A stretch of 46,783 nt of DNA from Bacillota bacterium (GCA_012520315.1 JAAYOM010000092.1:1-46783), one strand, 5' to 3'. Positions 5,990 to 42,128 are shown, numbered from the stretch's first letter. The notes: generated by a model from the letters alone, not told the origin. Program-made: numbers and translations.

Positions 5990-6235
5990 AAAAATCGCCC
6001 CAAAAAAGGGACGAATAAGCCGCGGTACCACCCTAGTTAAGACAGGTTGCCCTGTCTTCACTTCCTGGCGATAACGGCACCACCGGCTCAGCTTACTATT
6101 ACTCCTCACTTGAATTTCAGCAGGCAACTCCCGGGTGATTTTCCTTCACTGTTCCTGGCATCCGCTTTCACCTGACCGGACTCTCTGCAACCGTTTCCAG
6201 CAAGTACTCTCCCGTTCATCATCTTTCCGTATTAT
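5990..6235 (-). promoter_or_regulatory. T-box riboswitch leader of ileS
   Basis: Minus strand contains AGGGTGGTACCGCGG (T-box antiterminator core) followed by CGTCCCTTTTTTGGGGCG terminator-like sequence upstream of ileS; candidate Ile specifier ATC in GGAAAATCACC. Confidence 0.93.
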
Positions 6236-29076: not shown

Positions 29077-30192
29077 TCAGAGCCACCCCACAATCAGACG
29101 TAATTGCAGCCAAAAAAGCCGCAGATAGTGGCGCCACGGCGAGGCCAATCCCATGAAAATCAGAATAGGAATTAGGGTGGCCAAAATCACCGGGGCAAGG
29201 GAAAGTGGAGTAGTCGAACGATAAAGCTCACTTACTTTTTTGGCATCCAGCAAAATCGGTCCTATTTTGAGGCGGGTCAAAAAAGTGGACGCCATTCCGG
29301 GACGCCCTTTCTCCAGAAAATCAATCATGTTAGAATGGGAACCAACCAGGACAATCAGCTCGGCTCCTTGACTATGGGCCAGGAGCAGGCCGAGGTCTTC
29401 ACTTGTGCCTGGTGCAGGCACTACATGGAAGGGAACTCCCAGGCGCACCAGACGTTCACTGCTGGGGCAATGTCCGTCAGGGTAGGCGTGGGCGATGATC
29501 TGTGCTCCAGAATCGAGAGCGGTGTCGCTTACACTGTCCATATCCCCGATTATAATCTGCGGCTTGTAACCTGCAGAAATCAGGGCATCAGCTCCGCCGT
29601 CTACCCCAACTAAGATCGGTTTGGTCTCTTGAATATAAGCGCCGAGCACCCGCAGATCTTCCCTGTAACCAATTCCCCTGACTACAACAACCACTGCTTT
29701 TCCCTGCAAATCATGCCTCAACTCAGGGAAGACAATATCCCCTAGAATCACCTCTTTCTCTTTGTGAGCATAATCCAGAGTGTTGGTGACAAACCGATCA
29801 AGCTCACTTGCCAAGTTCTGCTTGGCCATACGCTGCCGTTCACTGATCACATACTCTGTAATCACATTACCGACTGCAACTACTTTACCCTCACTAAGCA
29901 CCTTGCGTCCCTGGATTTCGACTACATCCCCGTCTTTAAGCAGATCGAAAATTTTCTCGCCCACATTGTCTAAAAGGGGTACTCTATGCTCTAAGAGCAG
30001 CTGGGGACCTAAATTCGGGTAGCGGCAGGTGAGGGAACAATGGGCGTTGATTACCGCTAGGGCGCCTGCTTCAATCAGGCCTGCCGCTCCCACAGCATCG
30101 AGGTCTTCGTGGGCGATCACTGCTATTTCCCTTGGCTGCAGTAAAGCTGCCAGTTCTTTGGTTCGTTTCCCAAGCCTTACTCGCCCTCTCAT
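29077..30192 (-). CDS. SteA-like protein (thiamin pyrophosphokinase-like fold, C-terminal TM)
   Basis: GVDGGADALISAGYKPQIIIGDMDSVSDTAL (TPK-like) with EIAVIAHEDLDAVGAAGLIEAGALAVINA N-terminus and C-terminal TM helix. Confidence 0.8.
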   Translation of the reverse strand: MRGRVRLGKRTKELAALLQPREIAVIAHEDLDAVGAAGLIEAGALAVINAHCSLTCRYPNLGPQLLLEHRVPLLDNVGEKIFDLLKDGDVVEIQGRKVLSEGKVVAVGNVITEYVISERQRMAKQNLASELDRFVTNTLDYAHKEKEVILGDIVFPELRHDLQGKAVVVVVRGIGYREDLRVLGAYIQETKPILVGVDGGADALISAGYKPQIIIGDMDSVSDTALDSGAQIIAHAYPDGHCPSSERLVRLGVPFHVVPAPGTSEDLGLLLAHSQGAELIVLVGSHSNMIDFLEKGRPGMASTFLTRLKIGPILLDAKKVSELYRSTTPLSLAPVILATLIPILIFMGLASPWRHYLRLFWLQLRLIVGWL

Positions 30193-30215
30193 GCCTCCAC
30201 CCCCCAAAGTACACC

Positions 30216-30243
30216 TAAAAAGGGACGGTGCTCACCGTCCCTT
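30216..30243 (-). terminator. Intrinsic terminator downstream of spo0A
   Basis: Minus strand AAGGGACGGTG-AG-CACCGTCCCTT followed by TTT; near-perfect palindrome between spo0A and steA-like. Confidence 0.8.
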
Positions 30244-30268: not shown

Positions 30269-31024
30269 TTAGCCACGCTCACCGGCCTCCATAATGATCA
30301 AATCTACCATTTTGGCAATGAATGCCGAATTTGTCGGTTTGCCCTTGTTCTCCCTCACATAGGGGAAAAAGCTATAGAGCTGCTCTAGATTGCCTTTCTC
30401 CCAGGTTACATCAAGTGCGTAACGCATCGAACGCTCCACCTGGGAACCACTCACGTCAAAACGCTGGCCAATGGCTGGATACAAATTCTGGGTCACAGAG
30501 TTGAGCCAGGATGGATGGACTGAAACGAGCCAAATCCCCTCCATCAGGTAGCGATAGCCCTTGTAATGGGGCGGTATGCCCATCTGTTCAAAGAATGCTG
30601 TACAATTCTCCTGAACCTGTCGCCTCGACAACCCTTGGGGCACAGCACGGACGGGGGATTCCACGAGCTGCCTGATCCTTTTCTCCAAGACTATCAGATC
30701 GATCGGCCGCTGGACAAAATAATCCGCCCCTAAACTGGCCGTATGGGACAACTTCCATTCGGAGGCATCTTTGGAAGCTAACAGGATTATCTTGACCTCT
30801 TCGGAGGAGAACCTCGCCCGGATCTTCTCCAAAACCTCCAGGCCGTTTTGGGGCTGAAGGTCCGCATCCAGCAGGACGACATCAGGTGGAGGAGCGCCCA
30901 TGAGTTGAAATAAGTCTGCCTCGTCACTCACTCCCTGATAATGTATGTCCTGGAGCCGGCTGCAATATTCATTCATAGCTTGTAGAAACAAGGGATCGCC
31001 AGCGAGCTGCAAGATCCGAATCAC
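30269..31024 (-). CDS. spo0A: Sporulation transcription factor Spo0A (atypical receiver domain)
   Basis: C-terminal DNA-binding domain GIPPHYKGYRYLMEGIWLV...SQVERSMRYALDVTWEKGN...KGKPTNSAFIAKMVD closely follows Spo0A; N-terminal response-regulator fold; GTG start. Confidence 0.92.
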   Translation of the reverse strand: MIRILQLAGDPLFLQAMNEYCSRLQDIHYQGVSDEADLFQLMGAPPPDVVLLDADLQPQNGLEVLEKIRARFSSEEVKIILLASKDASEWKLSHTASLGADYFVQRPIDLIVLEKRIRQLVESPVRAVPQGLSRRQVQENCTAFFEQMGIPPHYKGYRYLMEGIWLVSVHPSWLNSVTQNLYPAIGQRFDVSGSQVERSMRYALDVTWEKGNLEQLYSFFPYVRENKGKPTNSAFIAKMVDLIIMEAGERG

Positions 31025-31052
31025 CTTAGCCGCCTCCCTCTCTTCTTCTGCC

Positions 31053-31919
31053 TCACCCCACCCGGCCAGCTAACAAGTAGGTCTTGGTGATCGGTGAGTA
31101 CTGGAAATTCTTGTCTAAGCGGAACCGTTCAATTGCGCCCGTTGAGGACATATGGATCCTCGGTCCTGAACAGGACAATTTTTCTTGGCCGATTAAAATG
31201 GTCTGTTCGTTGTAGACACTGATAGGCAGATCCTGTTCTATATAATCGAGAACTCGACGCTCTACCTCCTCTAGATCTACCTCCGGCTTGCGAGTAAACT
31301 CAATAACAAAACCCCGCCTGACGTCACTATGGAAGCGAGGCGCTTCAAATCCCATCTGTTCAAAAACTATTCCTGTCAGATCTTCTGCACTGTGGGCCAT
31401 TTTCCGGTAGACCAGAGACTGATAAGCCTCTTCCGCAAGCTCAGCTGGGAAAGGGCCAAAGATGGTTGGAACGGTCACCACCACTTCCTCCCCAATGCCA
31501 ATCAACATTTCGGCGTTGATGTTCAACAATGGATACAGCAGTTCAAAATGTTCTACCACTACGCGTCGGCCAGCCGACACTGCCTTTTTGACAGCGTCGG
31601 CCAGTTCCCACAGTTGAGTAAAGGCCATTTCGAAGCGTACATCCAAATGGTAGGTATGCGTTCGAAAGAATTCATTCTCAGCATCATCGAGGACAGGCAG
31701 GGGCCTTACATTCACACCCTCATCATCATTGGTCAGAACAAGGCCAGGGAACATACCCCGAATAATCAAAGACTTGCCTGCACCAGCATCTCCCATAATG
31801 CCAATCAACAGGTACTCTGCATCCAAATATCTCTGGGAAATCAGCATCCCCAGATGCATCAAGCGATGCCTGCCCCGGGGGGCATAGTATGATGCCTTCA
31901 CCAACGTGGTATAGTACAT
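31053..31919 (-). CDS. P-loop nucleotide-binding protein of unknown function (family sometimes annotated 'alanine-tRNA synthetase second additional domain')
   Basis: Walker A GIMGDAGAGKSLIIRGMFPG; TAATG stop/start overlap with upstream fumarase-like gene. The family name is from memory, not a search. Confidence 0.6.
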   Translation of the reverse strand: MYYTTLVKASYYAPRGRHRLMHLGMLISQRYLDAEYLLIGIMGDAGAGKSLIIRGMFPGLVLTNDDEGVNVRPLPVLDDAENEFFRTHTYHLDVRFEMAFTQLWELADAVKKAVSAGRRVVVEHFELLYPLLNINAEMLIGIGEEVVVTVPTIFGPFPAELAEEAYQSLVYRKMAHSAEDLTGIVFEQMGFEAPRFHSDVRRGFVIEFTRKPEVDLEEVERRVLDYIEQDLPISVYNEQTILIGQEKLSCSGPRIHMSSTGAIERFRLDKNFQYSPITKTYLLAGRVG

Positions 31920-32761
31920 TACAATACCGCCTCCACATGACGGGCGACATGGCAGTTGATATTGATTGCCACAGGCAACCCTGCAATGTGCGTTGGATAG
32001 GTCTCGACAAAGAGGGCTAGTGCTGTCTGGGTGCCTCCAAATCCCTGGGGGCCTACTCCTGTTTTGTTAACCAGCTCCAGGAGTTCCTCCTCCAGCTGAG
32101 CCACATGGGGCTTGGGATGCTTAGAACCGATCTCACGCATCACTGCCCTTTTTGCCAACAGGGCAGCTTTTTCCATGGTGCCGCCGATGCCCACGCCGAT
32201 GACTATGGGTGGACAGGGGTTGCCCCCTGCCTCGCTCACTGCCTTGACCACGAAGTCCTTAACTCCCTGTACGCCTTCGGCTGGTTTTAGCATGCGCAGT
32301 GCCGACATGTTCTCACTGCCAAAGCCTTTTGGAGCTACAATCAAGCGCATCTGATCTCCTGCCACCAAGGATACATGGAGCACTGCAGGGGTATTGTCCT
32401 TATTGTTCACCCGCTCTAATGGATCCCCCACTACACTCTTGCGGAAATAGCCTTCTTCGTACGCCTGCCGCACACCTTCGTCCACGGCATCCTGCAGCAG
32501 TCCGCCCTGGATATGCACATCCTGGCCCACCTCAGCAAAGACCACGACCATACCTGTATCCTGGCACAGGGGCATCTTCTTCTCTTTAGCGATGCGTGCG
32601 TTTTCCAGGATTGTGTCCAGAACATTCTGTCCAAGGGGCGATGCCTCATCTTTTTGAGCCTTGATGAGCGCGTCCCACACATCCTGAGGCAAATTGCAGT
32701 TGGCATCTAGGCAAAGCTCTTTAACTTGGGCAACAATATCTGCGTATTGAATGACCCTCAA
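31919..32761 (-). CDS. Class-I fumarate hydratase / mesaconase-type hydro-lyase, alpha subunit
   Basis: KKMPLCQDTGMVVVFAEVGQDVHIQGG, APKGFGSENMSALRML, GNPCPPIVIGVGIGGTMEKAALLAKRA, GVGPQGFGGTQTAL. Confidence 0.92.
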   Translation of the reverse strand: MRVIQYADIVAQVKELCLDANCNLPQDVWDALIKAQKDEASPLGQNVLDTILENARIAKEKKMPLCQDTGMVVVFAEVGQDVHIQGGLLQDAVDEGVRQAYEEGYFRKSVVGDPLERVNNKDNTPAVLHVSLVAGDQMRLIVAPKGFGSENMSALRMLKPAEGVQGVKDFVVKAVSEAGGNPCPPIVIGVGIGGTMEKAALLAKRAVMREIGSKHPKPHVAQLEEELLELVNKTGVGPQGFGGTQTALALFVETYPTHIAGLPVAININCHVARHVEAVL

Positions 32762-32775
32762 TGTTTATCCCCACC

Positions 32776-34017
32776 CTATTTTCTTTTCAATAAAGCAAGA
32801 GTACGATTCATCTCATTTGTGCAAATTGACAGACCCTCATCCACTCCCATGCCGGGTTTAGAGAGTATCTGCCTAGGTCTAGCTGCCAGGGCAATCTGCA
32901 CTGTAATTTGGGCAGATCGCTCTGTCTCATTACAGGTGCCTCCAAGATAGGGAATGGTTCCGTTTTCATGGCAGTAGAGCACAGCTTCTACGGTGTTGTT
33001 AATCCCGCCAAGATCGGGAGCCTTGATTTGAATCATATGACCTGCTTTGGCATCGCTGAACTCTTTGATATCATCTAATGTATTGCACCACTCATCGGCC
33101 ACAAATATACAGGGAATATTATGTTCGTCAACATAGGCCGTCAGTTCAGCCATGAGCTTGATCTGCTCTTCTTTCGAATCGACGTCAACTGGACCTTCAA
33201 TGGCAAGCGCATGGGGGGCCACCAGTTCTGTCAGCTCCCTGACGTACTCACCCATTTTCTCCACATCATTATTGAACGCTTCACCAATGGTACCATAAAC
33301 GTCAACTTGAAAATCAGGCAAATAGTCTGGATCCACTTTCAGCTCTGCTACCCTGTTTTTCAGCCAAAGCAAGTACTCCCTCAAATGTTCACCGTTCTTG
33401 CCGAGCTTGTTCACATTGTTGAAAAGTCCGTGGGGCAAGACATCGACATGCTTAATAATCATCCTGTCGGCGTTGAGCTTCCGATCATCACCTGTTTGGG
33501 TGAAAATCAAAACGGGTTCCGGCACGAGCTCCAAGTCGTACTCGTTTACCAAGACCTCTACCATGGTAAGGTGCTGCGCCCGAGCCACCGCATCAAGGAT
33601 TGCCTGGGTAACCCCATAGCGAATCGCTGTGTGCAGGGGTTTACCGTTCTCATCTTTAAGCTGATCTACTTTTTCCGCCAAAGCGCGGAAAGAAGTGAGT
33701 TCTGCATCGATTAACTCAGGCACAACGTATTTCTCAATCAGGGGCAGATAATCATCGGCTAAAAACAAGGGATCCCGGCCGCCGGCTCCTGAGTACTGCA
33801 CCGCAGCGCAATCACCGTAAGCAACCTGCCCATCTTCTAACACCAGCTGGACTGAAATGCTCTCGCCTGCTTGGCGAATCTTGGTAAAGCCTGGTGTTGC
33901 AGGTTCCCCATCGTAACTTAAGCCGTTTTCAACATAGTTACCCTGCCGAATGACTTTTTGGTCATCAAAGTAAAAACCGGTAAGACCCTTCGACAATACA
34001 ACATCTGTAATCCTCAC
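32776..34017 (-). CDS. mal: Methylaspartate ammonia-lyase
   Basis: MRITDVVLSKGLTGFYFDDQKVI..., QVDVYGTIGEAF, IEGPVDVDSKEEQIKLMAEL, FVADEWCNTLDDIKEF, MIQIKAPDLGGINNT. Confidence 0.96.
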   Translation of the reverse strand: MRITDVVLSKGLTGFYFDDQKVIRQGNYVENGLSYDGEPATPGFTKIRQAGESISVQLVLEDGQVAYGDCAAVQYSGAGGRDPLFLADDYLPLIEKYVVPELIDAELTSFRALAEKVDQLKDENGKPLHTAIRYGVTQAILDAVARAQHLTMVEVLVNEYDLELVPEPVLIFTQTGDDRKLNADRMIIKHVDVLPHGLFNNVNKLGKNGEHLREYLLWLKNRVAELKVDPDYLPDFQVDVYGTIGEAFNNDVEKMGEYVRELTELVAPHALAIEGPVDVDSKEEQIKLMAELTAYVDEHNIPCIFVADEWCNTLDDIKEFSDAKAGHMIQIKAPDLGGINNTVEAVLYCHENGTIPYLGGTCNETERSAQITVQIALAARPRQILSKPGMGVDEGLSICTNEMNRTLALLKRK

Positions 34018-34029
34018 TTGCTACACTCC

Positions 34030-34332
34030 TTAATATGTTAATTGGAATAATGGTGTGTGCTGTTGTGCACCGTAGACATCCGTTTCGCCCAAATCCCCTG
34101 AAGGCCGGGGACGAACAATTGTGATTTTAACTGCATAAGCCGGGGCGAAATGAATGATAGATAACACTTGTTCTTCTTCAATTTGGTACAATGCTGCTAT
34201 CTTATCCTTTGTTATGCTTTTCCCAACCTCGTTATAGGTAGCCTCGTCGGGAAACATCAAGTCAAAGGTCAACTCGTAGGGGCCGGCGTTCTTGCTGCGA
34301 ATCACCAAAGCAACATCTTTAACGTATCTCAT
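34030..34332 (-). CDS. DUF4387-like protein
   Basis: MRYVKDVALVIRSKNAGPYELTFDLMFPDEATYNEVGKS...; likely start at 34332, overlapping the AtuA-like stop, rather than 34554 of the ORF track. Confidence 0.8.
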   Translation of the reverse strand: MRYVKDVALVIRSKNAGPYELTFDLMFPDEATYNEVGKSITKDKIAALYQIEEEQVLSIIHFAPAYAVKITIVRPRPSGDLGETDVYGAQQHTPLFQLTY

Positions 34333-35692
34333 AGCCGCGCCTCCCGATCTTAATTGGAAATAGACTTTTCGGATCATCGACCTCAAGGAGATGATAGACA
34401 TTAAATTTATAGACTGCCCCTGCAGATACATCGGAGGGCGAATAGGGGAACGCCAGATTGCCGGCTGTTGACTTACGCCCTGGATAGCCGTAGTGGAGCA
34501 TCGTGGATCGGGCAAAACTGCAGATCGTATCCGCAATCTCCTGGGTGCGCGCAACCGCTTCTATCACCAGACCAAGCTCGTGGGCTGGTTCAGGATGGGG
34601 TTCCAATTGGCCCATAACGCCATTTTTCCCATAACAGTGCACATGCAGCTGGTAATCCTTAAGTTCCTGAAAGTTATCTGCAACCCGCTCCTTGACCCGG
34701 GCAATGACTTCATCGATTTGGCCTATCATGATAGGATCCCGCACGCCGGCGATACTGATAGTGCGATAGCCAATCAGACTGGCTCCCTCAAGTTTGAGAA
34801 AATAAGCATCTGTGGGCACAAATTTGGTACCCGCGACTTTAACCCTTCCCCCTGGTAGTTGTTCAAAAGTTGTCTCTCGCAAATCTAGGCTGCCGCCTGG
34901 TCCAGGCAGAGAATAGGGATCGCTCTTTTCGTAAAGGGTGTGGGCTGCAACAGAAATCCGCGTGCATTCCCGCTCGGGACTCAACGCCTCTAAGACAAAG
35001 TGATCGCCGGCTAAGGTGCCAAAAAGGCAATCGCTTCCACTGCCGGGGTTCGCGGCGATAGCAGCGCATTCAAGTATCTTCCCCATGTGCAAGGATAGAG
35101 CCATGTCATAACCCTTTAAAACCGGGAGAGCTGCAAACACAGTAGGATCGTAGGCCCGTCCTGCCAGAATTATTTCCGCCCCTTCCTCCAGGGCCTGCAT
35201 GATGGGTTCTAAACCCATCTGGGCCACAAGATTTGTGGAAGCTAAAATATCTTCTGCTGTTAATTCTCCAGCTGGACCAAGGGATTGGACTTTCCCCGCC
35301 TGCAGTTCTTCAATGAGAAACTCACGATCAATGTCACTGTAAATCACAGCGATCCGGGCAGTACGTTTTAATTCCTCCAGCAGTTCGTCAATAATGGCCA
35401 AGTTCCAATCCACATGGGGCCTGGCTCCGCTGCCTCCTGCAGTACCTATAATCAGAGGTATTTTCCTGTCAAGGGCAGCCTCAATCAGATAGCGCAAATC
35501 TCTTTTGACTGCAGAGCGCTGCGTAAACGAATCGCCAGACCCTAGGTAATAAGGCCCTGGATCAGTCGATCCAGCATCCACTGCAATTACATGGGGCTCC
35601 CGCTCTAGACCAACTTCAAAAGAGGAGAGTGGAAAACCGTAGCCTAGAATCGCAGTGGGGGATAAAATTCTCAATTCGGTCAAACTCATCAT
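34319..35692 (-). CDS. AtuA-like (acyclic terpene utilization / DUF1446) family protein
   Basis: LRILSPTAILGYGFPLSSFEVGLEREPHVIAVDAGSTDPGPYYLGSG, GTAGGSGARPHVDW, LAGRAYDPTVFAALP. Confidence 0.85.
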   Translation of the reverse strand: MMSLTELRILSPTAILGYGFPLSSFEVGLEREPHVIAVDAGSTDPGPYYLGSGDSFTQRSAVKRDLRYLIEAALDRKIPLIIGTAGGSGARPHVDWNLAIIDELLEELKRTARIAVIYSDIDREFLIEELQAGKVQSLGPAGELTAEDILASTNLVAQMGLEPIMQALEEGAEIILAGRAYDPTVFAALPVLKGYDMALSLHMGKILECAAIAANPGSGSDCLFGTLAGDHFVLEALSPERECTRISVAAHTLYEKSDPYSLPGPGGSLDLRETTFEQLPGGRVKVAGTKFVPTDAYFLKLEGASLIGYRTISIAGVRDPIMIGQIDEVIARVKERVADNFQELKDYQLHVHCYGKNGVMGQLEPHPEPAHELGLVIEAVARTQEIADTICSFARSTMLHYGYPGRKSTAGNLAFPYSPSDVSAGAVYKFNVYHLLEVDDPKSLFPIKIGRRGYEIR

Positions 35693-35695
35693 CTC

Positions 35696-37153
35696 CTAAC
35701 GAGGACGGCCAATCAGTCTGCCTTGACCAATGGCATAAATATCGTCGATGACCATCTGGAAATTCGGGGGACGCTTTTCTGCCTGCCCCCTTTCTGCCAG
35801 CTTTGCCCGGTGGAAATCCTGAATCTCTTTAGTGAAAGGCAGATTACCCCAGTTCAAAAAGCGGACGGCGCCTTCGTTGTCCCGGGCAGGCATAGTCCTC
35901 CCGGCGTTATAGGAACTTGGTGCGAAGGGCACATCAATCACGCCCGCCGCAAAGGCTCTAACTGCCCCTCTTGCCCAGTCACCTTCCCCTAGCTCCAGAG
36001 TTTTATCTAGAATCAGGCGTGTCTCCTGCAGAATAATTTCCCTTTCCTCAGCTAAACGGGGATTTTCTGGGTAAATTTGATCCTGCAGCATATTGAGAAC
36101 CTGCTTGGTGGCGCGAATACCTTGCGCATTCGCTTCTTTGGTAGGAATCCCCAACGCTTCGTGGGTGGTCTTCACAATCACCTTCGTTGCTTTGCCCAAA
36201 GCAGCAGTTATGCCCCCTAGGGAAATGACACCAAAAGCTTTGGCTTCATCAGCAGGAAATCCTCCCATCCATTGATGAAAGACGGTGGTAATGTCAACAT
36301 CATCAATTTCTTCTGCCTCCAGGTACTCTTCGGCCAAAATGGTGAGTGTCTGAAGCGCTGCTACGTCCTGGGCAATGTTTCCGCATTGACCATAGCCTAT
36401 GGTGATATTCTTGACACCCTGCTTGGCTGCTAGAATTGCTTCTATAACAGCTACACTGTGGGATATGCAGGGGGCCACCAGGGTGCCGGTTAACGGACCA
36501 AAGGGTTCACGGTTGATTGTTATGCCCTGTTCCTGATAATAGCCTACGAGGCGATCAACATATTGCCAATCTCGCAGACTCTGGTCGAGGGGCACTCTTT
36601 TGGCGTAGGGAATATTATACGAAATTCCGCCCCCTTCGTAAGCGGTAAAACCTGCAGCCAAGGTTATCTCTGCCAACAAACGTGCATCAGGCGTACCATG
36701 GCGCACCTGGACCGGAACGGACAAGGCCTCCACCAGGCTGCGACAATTTGCCACACCATGATTCACCGCAGGAAAGCCGTTGAGCAGCGATCTCCCTTCC
36801 CGCACACTTTCTGCCAGACCTTTCTCTGCCTCTTCATAGCGGTTTTGCCTGGTGTAGGAATCGATAGTGGTAGGAAGCAAATCTGCGCCGCCCTCATTTT
36901 GCAGGAAAAGAAGCAATTCCCGATGGCTGTTTAGATCAGCTACCCCAGCTCGGGGCTGGGACAGTGTTTTACCCTCCCCTTTGGCCTGGAGAAGGCGCAT
37001 GCCAAAATTCAGCTCCTGTGGCATTTTCCGATGATACTCCACTGCCTCGTCCAGATCCACTTCCTTGCCCGTTGGCCAGCTCGCTAGGACCGCCGTTCGT
37101 TCTTCCTGCAACTCATCCCAATCCAACCTGTCGTGCGTAATCTGTTCCGCCAA
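35696..37153 (-). CDS. glmE: Glutamate mutase epsilon subunit (methylaspartate mutase E)
   Basis: [48 protein letters not shown]...[10 protein letters not shown]...[19 protein letters not shown]. Confidence 0.95.
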
Positions 37154-38551
37154 CTAGATGTCCCTCCTTATAAGCTCTCGTTCACTCAGGGATTTCTGCA
37201 ATATTGTCAAGGCCGCCTCAGGCTGCTCCTGGGCCAGCAATCCCATGGAGGCCAAAATGTAACCGCCGTCTAAGAAATAGCTTGGATTCTCAGGCCTCAA
37301 TTCGAGGGCCAATGACTCCTGTCCAGCACCTTCCAGCATCATCAAGGGGTCCCGGCTGTTAATCAGCACACCACCAGTGCCAATTACCTTCGACACTTTA
37401 GAAAGATCCTTGCCATCTTGTATCCACACCAGACCCGAAGGGGTATAGAGCTCTGAGAGCCTGCCAACATGCCTGCCTACTCCGAGCTTTATGGCGTGAT
37501 ATCCTAAAATTTGGTCAAATCTCTCTTCTTCCGGATTTTGCGGCAATGTTTCGGGATCCTTATGCAGAGCCTGAACTCTGCTCTCGACCTGCTCTACAGT
37601 CCAACCCGTGTCTTGCGCTAAAACCCTTGCGTCCACCGCTTCGGTCAAGGAGAGAACACTGACACGTACTCCTAAATCCCCTTCTACTGTACGTTTGGCA
37701 AATGGTTCCGGCAGGCCGCGCACCACCACACCCGCCTTAGTCGGCAGTCCGACCCCGAGAGAATGGACATCGGTAGTCGCGCCGCCAACATCCACAATTA
37801 AGATATCTCCCCATCCCTTGGTAACCGCCGTCCCTTCGCTAAGCAGCTGCCCCGCCCGGAGCACTGCCGCGGGGGTGGGCATGAAGATACTGTCAATCAA
37901 ACGACTCGCCCGATTTAGGCCTTTGGCGTAAGTGATCTTCTCCATAAAGACCTTGCGAATAGACTCTCGGGCCGGTTCAACCTGCAGTTTGCCGATTGTA
38001 GGCATCACATTTGCCGAGATATAGGTACTAAAAGATTCAGGAAACGTGCGGGCGACTTCTTGGGCCACAGAACGATTGCCGGCAATGACGATGGGAACAG
38101 CCTTCGGCAGGGATGCTAAAACCTTGGCGTTGTGCAGAATGTTCTCTGAATTGCCTCCATCGGTTCCACCGGCCAGCAGAATGATATCAGGGTCAAGTTC
38201 GATTATTTCGGCACGATCTGCTTCAGTCAATTGAAAAGAATAAGTCTTTAAGACCCTGGCTCCTGCACCTAAAGCGGCGAGTTTAGCAGCTTTAGCCGTC
38301 AGATCTTCAACCAGACCAATGGCAACCATACGCAATCCACCAGCAGCGCTTGAACATGCCAAAACACGAGCCTCCTGCAGAGCCCCGCTAGTAAGTTCCA
38401 ACTGATCTAATGCATTTTGCAGCCCTACACTCACATCTGTTGGTGTTGTAGGGGCAAGGGACTGTGATAGGATGCTTCTTTCTCTGGTGTTCACCGCCGT
38501 TACTTTAGTAAACGTACTCCCGATATCAACCAAAATCATGGCTTCTGTCAT
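37154..38551 (-). CDS. glmL: Glutamate mutase reactivating protein GlmL (ASKHA ATPase)
   Basis: MILVDIGSTFTKVTAVN, LACSSAAGGLRMVAIGLV, LLAGGTDGGN, ILIVDVGGATTDVHS. Confidence 0.94.
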   Translation of the reverse strand: MTEAMILVDIGSTFTKVTAVNTRERSILSQSLAPTTPTDVSVGLQNALDQLELTSGALQEARVLACSSAAGGLRMVAIGLVEDLTAKAAKLAALGAGARVLKTYSFQLTEADRAEIIELDPDIILLAGGTDGGNSENILHNAKVLASLPKAVPIVIAGNRSVAQEVARTFPESFSTYISANVMPTIGKLQVEPARESIRKVFMEKITYAKGLNRASRLIDSIFMPTPAAVLRAGQLLSEGTAVTKGWGDILIVDVGGATTDVHSLGVGLPTKAGVVVRGLPEPFAKRTVEGDLGVRVSVLSLTEAVDARVLAQDTGWTVEQVESRVQALHKDPETLPQNPEEERFDQILGYHAIKLGVGRHVGRLSELYTPSGLVWIQDGKDLSKVSKVIGTGGVLINSRDPLMMLEGAGQESLALELRPENPSYFLDGGYILASMGLLAQEQPEAALTILQKSLSERELIRRDI

Positions 38552-38564
38552 TGAAAACCCTCCA

Positions 38565-38975
38565 TTACATACCAAGATCTTCCTTCAAAGTTGGAATGAA
38601 GTCTTCCGGCAATGTACTTGGAGGGTAAACGCGATCAAAGCCCAAGTTCTTGAACTTGGCTTCTACTTCAGTCCACTCTTGGCTGCCCACTACTAAATAG
38701 CCGCCAATGTACATCAAAGTGTCTCCGATGCCCGCCTCGATCAAAGCTTCCCTGAGACCCCGGACATCGATCTCGCCATGCCCATAGAGAGAGGAGACCA
38801 TGATGGCATCTGCGTTGGTTTCCAAGGCAGCTTCGACAAATTCCTTCTGTGAAACCAGTACCCCAAGGTTAACCACACTAAATCCTGCTTCTTTGAGGGA
38901 AATCTCCAGGATCTTGTTACCTACCGCATGTACATCAGAACCAATGACTCCTAAAACCAGCGTCTTTGCTTCCAT
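38565..38975 (-). CDS. glmS: Glutamate mutase sigma subunit (B12-binding)
   Basis: [17 protein letters not shown], i.e. the DxHxxG cobalamin motif; [26 protein letters not shown]. Confidence 0.95.
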
Positions 38976-38990
38976 TTTAACAGCCCCACC

Positions 38991-40349
38991 TCACCCACAT
39001 CTGTTCTCTATTGCGCCTAAAACACTTGTAATAAACTCTTTCTCTACATGCAAAAAAAAACCTTCCCGCGAAAACGATTGTTTCGCGGGAATTTCCTGAA
39101 TCTGCCCCAGCCCTGCCTCATAGACCATCCATTCAGCAAAGCTGCCATATCCTTTTGTGGGGTTGTTGACAAACACATGGGTTATTGCCCCTACCAACAT
39201 GCCGTTTTGTATGATGGGACTGCCTGACATGCCCTGAATAATTCCACCGGTCTCCCTTAACAGGCGTTCATCGGTAACCTCGATCACCATACCTTTTTCC
39301 CCAGGTCTGGTCTGATTGACCACTTTGACAATCTCTACACTGAAACGTTCCACCCGGTTCCCGTGGAGCACGGTTAAAATGTGTGCAGGGCCCAGCCTCA
39401 CTTGATGGGCGAAGGCCACAGGTACAGGCTCTGCAAAGTCACTTCCGGGAAGCGCTCGTTCCAGCTGACCGAAAATGCCAAAGCTGGTATTGGAGTCAAT
39501 GGTGCCTAACACGTCTTGGTCCCCGTGGAAAAATCCCACCTTTTCGCCGGGGAAACCTCTGCTGCCATAGCGGATTCCATCTATCGCAGCTTCGACAATG
39601 CTCCCGCTGACAATTTTCAGCGGGCGGCCCCTGCTGTCTGTTATGGTGTGGCCTAAGGCACCGAAACGTCCGGTCTCTTGGTCATAAAAGCTCATGGTTC
39701 CTACACCAGCCGATGGATCTTCCAAAAAAATACCTAGCAAGTACGCTGGCTCCTGCTGCCCAAACGGTCTGGACAAAACAGGTTCAACCTCCACGGTAAG
39801 CTGGCGATTATTGCGGCGAATCACTAGTTCCAGAACCCGTTTCTCTCTTGCTAGAGAGTTGACCAGTTGACTTACCTCTTCTGGCCTGCGCAGATTATGT
39901 CCTTCAATCGAAAGCAGAATGTCTCCGGGCTGGATTCCTCCCTCACGGGCTGGAAAACGTTCCATTCCATCAGCGTCCAAAACAGCTCCCAAATCTGCAA
40001 TGACTAAGCCGTCAGAACTTAGCAATACTCCGATGGACTGTCCTCCCGGGATAACCCGGACCAGCGGAACCACATCAACTACGACCTCTGTCAAGGGCAG
40101 CCAACCAAAGAGGTTTACCCTGTAGATGCTGGTTCCTAAGTTCTCTGTATTAAAGAGGCCTGTCACCTCAAGCCCAGACTGATCATGAATTGTAAAAGGC
40201 GGTTTCAGATCCAGAGACAGTTCCATTCCGGGAAAAACCTTCAATTCTCGGGGAATGCCCACTGCCGCCACCCAATACGGAACAGTAGCCAAAGCTAAGA
40301 GACAAGCCAAAACAAGTGTCAGCCCCACCCGGAGCAGTATTTTCCTCAC
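38991..40349 (-). CDS. spoIVB: SpoIVB serine peptidase (PDZ + S55) with unusual C-terminal tail
   Basis: PDZ region GIQPGDILLSIEGHNLRRPEE; GALGHTITDSRGRPL; GIIQGMSGSPIIQNGMLVGAITHVFVNNPTKGYGSFAEWM. Confidence 0.95.
   Translation of the reverse strand: MRKILLRVGLTLVLACLLALATVPYWVAAVGIPRELKVFPGMELSLDLKPPFTIHDQSGLEVTGLFNTENLGTSIYRVNLFGWLPLTEVVVDVVPLVRVIPGGQSIGVLLSSDGLVIADLGAVLDADGMERFPAREGGIQPGDILLSIEGHNLRRPEEVSQLVNSLAREKRVLELVIRRNNRQLTVEVEPVLSRPFGQQEPAYLLGIFLEDPSAGVGTMSFYDQETGRFGALGHTITDSRGRPLKIVSGSIVEAAIDGIRYGSRGFPGEKVGFFHGDQDVLGTIDSNTSFGIFGQLERALPGSDFAEPVPVAFAHQVRLGPAHILTVLHGNRVERFSVEIVKVVNQTRPGEKGMVIEVTDERLLRETGGIIQGMSGSPIIQNGMLVGAITHVFVNNPTKGYGSFAEWMVYEAGLGQIQEIPAKQSFSREGFFLHVEKEFITSVLGAIENRCG
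39052..39091 (-). terminator. Intrinsic terminator inside the 3' coding part of spoIVB
   Basis: Minus strand TTCCCGCGAAA-CAATCGT-TTTCGCGGGAA (11-bp perfect stem), GG, then TTTTTTTTT (9 T). Confidence 0.85.
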
Positions 40350-40439: not shown

Positions 40440-42128
40440 CTAAAGCGTTGCTGAGCTGGTCTTTTTCAGCAATTCCCTAGCATGTTCCAGAGTAACGCGT
40501 TCCTGGGCAGAGCCCCCGAGCATGCGGGTCAATTCTTCTACCCGTTCATCCGGTGAAAGCAAACTCACACTGACGACAGTACGCCCTTGCTGTGAAGACT
40601 TCTGGACAGAGTAATGCTTAGTGCCATAACTGGCTACCACTGGCAAATGCGTTACACAGAGAACTTGGCGCACCTGGCTGAGGGATAGCAGCTTTTCACC
40701 TAAGTTCACTGCTGTTCTTCCCCCTATTCCGGCGTCGATTTCGTCGAAGACAATTGTTGGCGTCTGTTCCGTTTCTACCAAAATAGCTTTGATCGCCAAC
40801 ATCACCCGGGATAGCTCTCCGCCGGACGCTATCTTTGCCAAGGATTTCAAATCTTCCCCCACATTAGGTGCCAGCATGAACTCAACTTCCTCCTGGCCGC
40901 CCACGGCAGGAGTGTCTGCAGCCTGGGGCGTAAAGTGCACTTTAAACTTGGTGCTGCCCATGGAGAGATGGGAGAGCTCTGCCTCAATTAGCTGTTCTAG
41001 CCGAGCGGCTGCTTCTTTGCGGCTTTCGCTCAGTGCACCTGCCTCCTGGCGCCACCTATCTGCAAACAAGCGGCACTCTTCCTCTATAGTATCCGCCTGT
41101 ACCGAGGCGTTTTCCAGCCTGTCCAACTCACTTTCCGCCCCCTGCAGGTAGGTCTGGATCTCTTCTACTGTACTGCCATATTTGCGTTTCAAACCTTCAA
41201 TGAGATTGAGCCTGGACTCTATCTCATTCAGCCGCTCGGGGTCGGCAGGAAGCCTGTCCGCATAATGGCGAAACTCGCCATAGACATCGTGCAGTTCGAT
41301 GGACAACCCCACAAAGCGCTCTGTCAAAGGTGCCAGTGTCGGATCAAGCTCCGCCGCACGCTGCAGCTCAGCCTCCATAGCGGATAGAGTGTGGAGAAGA
41401 GAATCCCGCTCATCGTAGCTTTCCGCCATCAGATCAAGTGCGAAATGCAGACTGTGACGGATACGGTCTAGGTTGGCCAGGCGGTTCCGTTCCAGCTCCA
41501 ACCGATCATCTTCACCTAGCTGCAGAGCAGCACTGCTGATTTCTTCCACCTGAAATCTCAAAAGATCTATGCGCCTGTTTCTTTCCCTCTCATCCCGGTG
41601 CAGTCGATTAAGTTCCGAACGCAAAGAACTCCACTTGGCAGCGAGTTCATCAACGCGGCTTACCAGCTCAAGATGGGCTGGCCCGCCAAAGATATCCAAA
41701 AGCCGGCCATGACCCTTTGGATCCAGCAGGCTTTGACTGTCATGCTGCCCAACAATATCAACCAGGCAGCGTCCAAGCTCTGCCAGTTGACCCACAGTGG
41801 CCAAGTGTCCATTTAGCCAACATTTGTTGCGTCCGCTCGCGTTGATCTCGCGGGTAATAACAAGTTGCTCTTCTACGGGTATCCCCCACTTTTCCAGCAG
41901 GACCTTTGAAGTAGGATTGTGATCAAAGCACCCTGACACCCTCGTGCTTTCGGCACCGGTTCGAATCATCTCCGCTGAGGCCCTGGCACCTAAGAGCAGG
42001 CTAAGGGCATCAATAATGATGGATTTCCCTGCACCGGTTTCACCGCTCAAGACACTGAATCCAGAATAGAACGACAATTCCAGTTCCTCGATTAGGGCAA
42101 AGTTACGAATCTGCAACTCGTTTAACAA
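40440..42128 (-). CDS. recN: DNA repair protein RecN
   Basis: MLNELQIRNFALIEELELSFYSGFSVLSGETGAGKSIIIDALSLLLG; QHDSQSLLDP; ASGGELSRVMLAIK; VFDEIDAGIGGRTA. Confidence 0.97.
   Translation of the reverse strand: MLNELQIRNFALIEELELSFYSGFSVLSGETGAGKSIIIDALSLLLGARASAEMIRTGAESTRVSGCFDHNPTSKVLLEKWGIPVEEQLVITREINASGRNKCWLNGHLATVGQLAELGRCLVDIVGQHDSQSLLDPKGHGRLLDIFGGPAHLELVSRVDELAAKWSSLRSELNRLHRDERERNRRIDLLRFQVEEISSAALQLGEDDRLELERNRLANLDRIRHSLHFALDLMAESYDERDSLLHTLSAMEAELQRAAELDPTLAPLTERFVGLSIELHDVYGEFRHYADRLPADPERLNEIESRLNLIEGLKRKYGSTVEEIQTYLQGAESELDRLENASVQADTIEEECRLFADRWRQEAGALSESRKEAAARLEQLIEAELSHLSMGSTKFKVHFTPQAADTPAVGGQEEVEFMLAPNVGEDLKSLAKIASGGELSRVMLAIKAILVETEQTPTIVFDEIDAGIGGRTAVNLGEKLLSLSQVRQVLCVTHLPVVASYGTKHYSVQKSSQQGRTVVSVSLLSPDERVEELTRMLGGSAQERVTLEHARELLKKTSSATL

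Follow-up and report, generated by a model that had tools for sequence, protein, structure and literature searches.

What is a glutamate-mutase/methylaspartate operon doing between spoIVB and spo0A, and which of the two, metabolism or sporulation, would govern the other? The locus lies on the minus strand of a 46,783-nucleotide stretch of DNA from a Bacillota bacterium (GCA_012520315.1 JAAYOM010000092.1:1-46783), hereafter the window. Open reading frames and family searches confirmed the coordinates and order proposed by an earlier sequence-only reading: spoIVB, eight same-strand genes and, 28 bp after the last of these, spo0A. Upstream, recN (40440..42128), called from its open reading frame and from the nadK-argR-recN-spoIVB order kept in relatives, flanks spoIVB (38991..40349; SpoIVB peptidase, TIGR02860, 402.6 bits). 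The TIGR02860 match stops at residue 413 of 452, and the C-terminal ~39 residues run beyond the model, through the hairpin and promoter element described below. The operon itself begins with glmS, encoding the S subunit of methylaspartate (glutamate) mutase (38565..38975; PRK02261 and TIGR01501, above cut-off), followed by glmL for the glutamate mutase accessory protein (37154..38575; NF040745, 581 bits against a cut-off of 475), whose likelier start is the ATG at 38551, and glmE for the methylaspartate mutase E subunit (35696..37153; TIGR01503, 738.8 bits). Next come two genes identified through Pfam, one for an AtuA-like protein (34319..35692; PF07287, 73.5 bits) and one for a 100-residue DUF4387 protein (34030..34332; PF14330, 123 bits), whose computed ATG start overlaps the AtuA-like gene. 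The operon closes with mal, encoding methylaspartate ammonia-lyase (32776..34017; TIGR01502, 559 bits), a gene for the alpha subunit of a class I fumarase/mesaconase-type hydratase (31919..32761; PRK06246, 416.8 bits), and a gene for a P-loop protein with a TsaE-like ATPase and an AlaX/ThrRS-type editing-domain fold (31053..31919; AF2 model and VIA structural matches). GlmS, GlmL, GlmE, Mal and the fumarase alpha subunit all scored well above their curated cut-offs in family searches. The final gene (30269..31024; Spo0A_C, PF08769, 105.9 bits; TIGR02875, 168.9 bits) encodes a Spo0A-family paralogue, here called copy 1, and beyond it, outside the transcription unit, lies a steA-like gene (29077..30207) that adjoins spo0A class-wide.

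We sampled relatives from the source genome's own genus, family, order and class and compared the DNA around their spoIVB-linked spo0A genes; f1 denotes the source's own family, made up of uncultured bacteria of spore-forming type, f5 the second family of the order that carries the operon, and f3 and f4 other families of the order. The reading we favour, with a probability of roughly two in three, is that the operon was captured between spo0A and its sigma-H-type promoter, leaving a single sigma-H-driven unit that includes a Spo0A paralogue. On this view the order's ancestor acquired, in a single event, a glutamate-mutase/methylaspartate operon ending in the P-loop gene, which landed downstream of the sigma-H-type promoter that follows spoIVB and separated it from spo0A. 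The promoter would have remained at the end of spoIVB, now ahead of glmS, where a terminator-like hairpin with which it shares its T tract would insulate it from recN-spoIVB. The eight genes plus spo0A would form one transcription unit ending at the terminator after spo0A; with sigma-H becoming active as the cell turns to sporulation, it would produce the Spo0A paralogue together with glutamate mutase and methylaspartate ammonia-lyase. The sequence itself shows which genes are present, their order and its conservation, that the operon genes form a single clade, the conserved hairpin and promoter-like element, the lack of any such conserved element before spo0A, and the two Spo0A copies with their residues; from it we infer that sigma-H is used, that the unit is co-transcribed, when it is expressed and what the paralogue does.

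Within the 3′ end of the spoIVB open reading frame, upstream of glmS, lies a conserved intrinsic-terminator-like hairpin with an 11-bp stem (39063..39091, minus strand) and a tract of 8-9 T. It has what an intrinsic terminator calls for, namely a stable GC-rich stem, a U tract and paired changes: the fold is stable (MFE -17.6, z -3.5), two pairs changed on both sides across 16 sequences (a covariation score matched by 1 of 500 shuffles), and the hairpin columns pair at 91%, as against 41-59% in slid controls. Hairpin and T tract precede glmS in all 16 f1 genomes checked, the window included, and in one f5 genome (G025); in many genomes this region is still spoIVB coding sequence.

Overlapping the T tract is a sigma-H-type promoter-like element, GAAGGTTTT-N11-AGAGAAA (39039..39065, minus strand). 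For sigma-H promoters a consensus has been published as (A/G)(A/C)AGG(A/G)(A/T)3-N11-12-(A/G)(A/G)(A/C)GAA(A/T) (PMC4754846), and the window site departs from RMAGGRWWW-N11/12-RRMGAAW by one mismatch, a T in the -35 where the consensus has A/G. All 15 f1 loci besides the window carry the pattern before glmS (0.4 expected), a count of related sequences rather than of 15 independent events. Other Bacillota Glm clusters (among them those of Pelosinus, Desulforamulus, Emergencia and Carboxydothermus) likewise contain glmS-glmL-glmE, often with mal, the AtuA-like gene, the fumarase alpha gene and the same P-loop protein. Unlike the locus in the window, the clusters examined all lie apart from spoIVB and spo0A, and the strict motif precedes glmS in 0 of 39 glm operons outside the order. 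Among class relatives outside the order, a looser form of the pattern stands before spo0A itself in 19 of 22 (2.2 expected). The source genome encodes SigH (TIGR02859, 377.8 bits). No 0A boxes are conserved before glmS.

It is unlikely that the hairpin and T tract are just the recN-spoIVB terminator, with the promoter match a by-product and the operon transcribed by read-through or from a sigma-A promoter that went unrecognised. In favour of this view, a T tract that follows a GG-ending stem often looks like AGGWWW, and the consensus is matched with one mismatch elsewhere in the window too (5 sites against 1.0 expected by chance). What a terminator would not call for is the downstream block: in f1 the T tract is continued by AGG-N15-AG[AC]GAA, with the 15-nt spacing kept constant across T runs of 6 to 9. 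The same design, AGGTWW-N15/16-GAA, also precedes spoIIAA in 13 of 14 f1 genomes (0.06 expected), which provides an independent reference, and it occurred 0 or 1 times at the other junctions tested. A second sigma-H reference gene was sought in SpoVG, which is absent from f1, and a genome-wide scan for GCAGGTWW-type sites returned eight matches whose neighbours, apart from spoIIAA, were mixed and uninformative. The descent of the glmS promoter from the old spo0A promoter we only infer, because the looser motif precedes just 2 of 10 spo0A genes in f3 and f4, and glmS in only one of two f5 genomes. As the conserved element upstream of glmS is of the sigma-H type, any coupling likely runs from the onset of sporulation to the glutamate operon.

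At the other end of the unit, the terminator that the sequence-only reading had placed after spo0A was recovered as a hairpin, AGGGACGGTGAGCACCGTCCCT-TTTTT (30216..30242, minus strand), and one of the same type follows spo0A in most f1 genomes. Intergenic gaps within the unit measure 2-28 bp in most genomes, no terminator lies between the P-loop gene and spo0A, and no conserved promoter was found where the P-loop gene ends. On these features the Spo0A-type gene appears to close the glutamate-mutase transcription unit, with co-transcription well supported; a weak or sigma-A promoter that is not conserved may still precede it.

A dedicated spo0A promoter inside the P-loop gene, which would make spo0A just the operon's neighbour, is distinctly improbable. 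In its favour, transcription of spo0A in B. subtilis starts from two dedicated promoters, Pv (sigma-A) and Ps (sigma-H) (PMC12090719). Against it stand the short gaps in most genomes, the missing terminator and the lack of any conserved trace of such a promoter, whether in the motif scan or at fourfold-degenerate sites, and for want of that trace we rejected it. The sigma-H-type pattern precedes operon-displaced spo0A in 0 of 22 genomes, and the end of the P-loop gene is under no synonymous constraint. Throughout the P-loop gene, identity at fourfold-degenerate sites stays within background levels (0.31-0.43; 0.35 at the gene's end), whereas at the end of spoIVB it climbs to 0.66 and 0.99. Together with the motif counts, this contrast shows that glmS is preceded by a conserved cis element and spo0A is not. 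The B. subtilis locus (PMC12090719) and the one in the window share their neighbours, recN-spoIVB-spo0A, and a sigma-H-type promoter after spoIVB; in the window, unlike in B. subtilis, eight catabolic genes separate promoter and spo0A, and the spo0A is a paralogue whose receiver is eroded.

The source genome in fact encodes two Spo0A_C proteins, as do nearly all of its class relatives. A fully supported branch of the Spo0A tree separates the two copies, which makes the pair an old one; the last per-group table from that analysis, in which f1 is mixed with f10-f16, was set aside. Copy 1, in the window, resembles the Spo0A of TIGR02875 in its Spo0A_C domain and VER-type recognition helix (VERSMRYALD, canonical against VERAIRHAIE), and it matches the solved Spo0A chains 1fc3 and 1lq1. 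Unlike that Spo0A, it scores below the equivalog cut-off of 200 bits and has a changed acidic pair, switch Thr and Lys. Set against the features of a phosphorylatable receiver (acidic pair, phospho-Asp, Thr/Ser and Lys), it keeps the phospho-Asp (LLDADL), but the acidic pair reads A-G-D-P, with the first acidic residue lost, the Thr block is LASK in place of ITAF, and Arg stands for Lys. Some f1 members have lost the phospho-Asp as well, and mean identity of copy 1 within f1 is 0.40 in the receiver against 0.62 in the C-terminal domain. Copy 2 (contig C13; L033:8094-8843), which is present class-wide, scores 259.6 bits, above the cut-off, and has a conserved receiver (V/A-DNN, LDITMP, TAFG, KPF) and an altered helix (GVEAAIRNA). 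In the source genome it lies between what we take, from their sequences, to be rsmB and rlmN.

Across the class, then, a Spo0A with a drifting receiver and a canonical helix is paired with one whose receiver is fixed and whose helix is altered. This pairing challenges the model in which a single Spo0A governs entry into sporulation, and opens that model to testing. Because copy 1 keeps its DNA-recognition helix while its receiver is eroded in most of f1, how active it is would depend more on its amount or on a partner than on the normal phosphorylation switch. A speculative extension, of low probability, is that the catabolic operon came under the sporulation-onset promoter of spo0A, that the downstream Spo0A turned dose-controlled, and that it shares control with the receiver-intact, helix-altered second Spo0A as a DNA-binding copy beside a sensing copy, maybe through mixed dimers. 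The receiver of copy 1 is still canonical in one f1 genome (G014) and in f5, and decay within f1 therefore probably came after capture. Insertion as the cause of the decay was rejected: in f5 the operon is present and the receiver canonical, whereas f3 lacks the operon and its receiver has decayed all the same.

These two copies bear on the direction of coupling proposed by the sequence-only reading, in which glutamate or B12 status controls a canonical Spo0A through read-through, so that metabolism gates sporulation. Part of that proposal holds, in that short gaps and the lack of an intervening terminator or conserved promoter favour co-transcription of spo0A with the operon, and with co-directional genes in one unit any inducer of the operon would raise the window Spo0A too. 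That the window gene is the sporulation master regulator is not supported: its product falls under the Spo0A equivalog cut-off, has an eroded receiver and is accompanied in the same genome by a copy that passes with its receiver conserved. Nor did the postulated link to amino-acid or B12 status find a sensor: no B12 riboswitch or other known RNA was detected at the locus at the Rfam gathering threshold. Metabolic gating of a canonical Spo0A is accordingly a very improbable reading. The sole Rfam match in the window is a T-box leader at 6004-6228, on the minus strand and distant from the spo0A locus.

With both mutase subunits, GlmL and the ammonia-lyase all above curated cut-offs, the operon can, by the established chemistry of its families, convert glutamate to 3-methylaspartate and mesaconate. 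For the class I hydratase that follows, whose sequence alone does not tell fumarate from mesaconate, the alpha subunit is in the operon and the beta subunit (PF05683) is unlinked, on contig C113. Citramalate lyase alpha (CitF type, PF04223) was not found in eight genomes, the source (88% complete) among them, so the classical citramalate lyase route to acetate and pyruvate is not supported and, judged by gene content, classical methylaspartate fermentation is incomplete. Our guess is that the AtuA-like and DUF4387 proteins belong to another exit from the pathway. In the literature searched we found no paper on DUF4387 and none mentioning glutamate mutase together with spo0A. The P-loop protein, which accompanies glutamate-mutase clusters in many Bacillota, was modelled with AF2 from 45 sequences (pLDDT 91); VIA matched residues 5-156 to TsaE/YdiB (Z about 10) and residues 167-288 to AlaRS/AlaX (Z 14-15). 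Editing activity is doubtful, because the HxxxH-type motif of that domain reads HSAED.

In f1 the gene order on every contig spanning the locus is nadK-argR-recN-spoIVB-glmS-glmL-glmE-AtuA-(DUF4387)-mal-fumA-Ploop-spo0A-steA-mctB, and f5 reads recN-glmS...Ploop-spo0A, without spoIVB. The source genome is fragmented (142 contigs), but an assembly or binning artefact is barely credible and, like chance, is excluded by a gene order that recurs through f1 and f5 across many independent assemblies, some of whose contigs measure from several hundred kb up to >1 Mb. MAG records such as UBA5420 and Peptococcaceae bacterium 1109 show the same arrangement. The gene-order comparison called for by the sequence-only reading thus finds the linkage kept across two families and dates it most simply to the ancestor of the order. 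glmE was found in 22 of 22 f1 and 3 of 3 f5 genomes, and above cut-off it was absent from every other class member sampled. In most f3 genomes and most other members of the class, spoIVB adjoins spo0A; two f3 genera (G033 and G034) have a lone fumarase alpha gene between them (L065:2099-2971 and L066:1780-2646), with its beta partner unlinked.

A species tree from RecN, NadK, ArgR and SteA places f1 beside (f4, f5) and f3, with support of 1.0 for the order. In trees of the P-loop protein, GlmE, Mal and AtuA, with at most 57 outside clusters, the order's copies fall on one side of a branch at moderate SH-aLRT values of 84-96, and the leftover f3 fumarase alpha groups with f5, then with f1. Because five gene trees and the leftover fumarase of the two f3 genera point that way, a single old capture in the order's ancestor, with later loss in f3 and f4, would be the simplest account. 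The order includes intact, leftover and empty states of the locus, and offers a case, open to testing, in which a metabolic operon has become part of the control region of the sporulation regulator and has been kept across a family.

Several further observations concern individual genomes and families. In one genome of the source's genus (G006), glmE (C135:32778-34548) is broken into separate matches, perhaps by a frameshift or an assembly error. No full SpoIVB peptidase was found in any of three f5 genomes searched, and sporulation may be altered or lost in that family; the f5 loci (L057, L059 and L061) have no SpoIVB peptidase gene, yet retain a canonical receiver in copy 1. In f4 (G024, L056:4156-14911) the same site has received a second insertion, unrelated to the first: the ~11 kb between spoIVB and spo0A there carries genes that, judged by eye, encode MoxR/vWA-type, membrane and HtrA-like proteins. 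Families f6 and f15 carry further short insertions between spoIVB and spo0A (L068:13274-15304 and L081:4560-5243).
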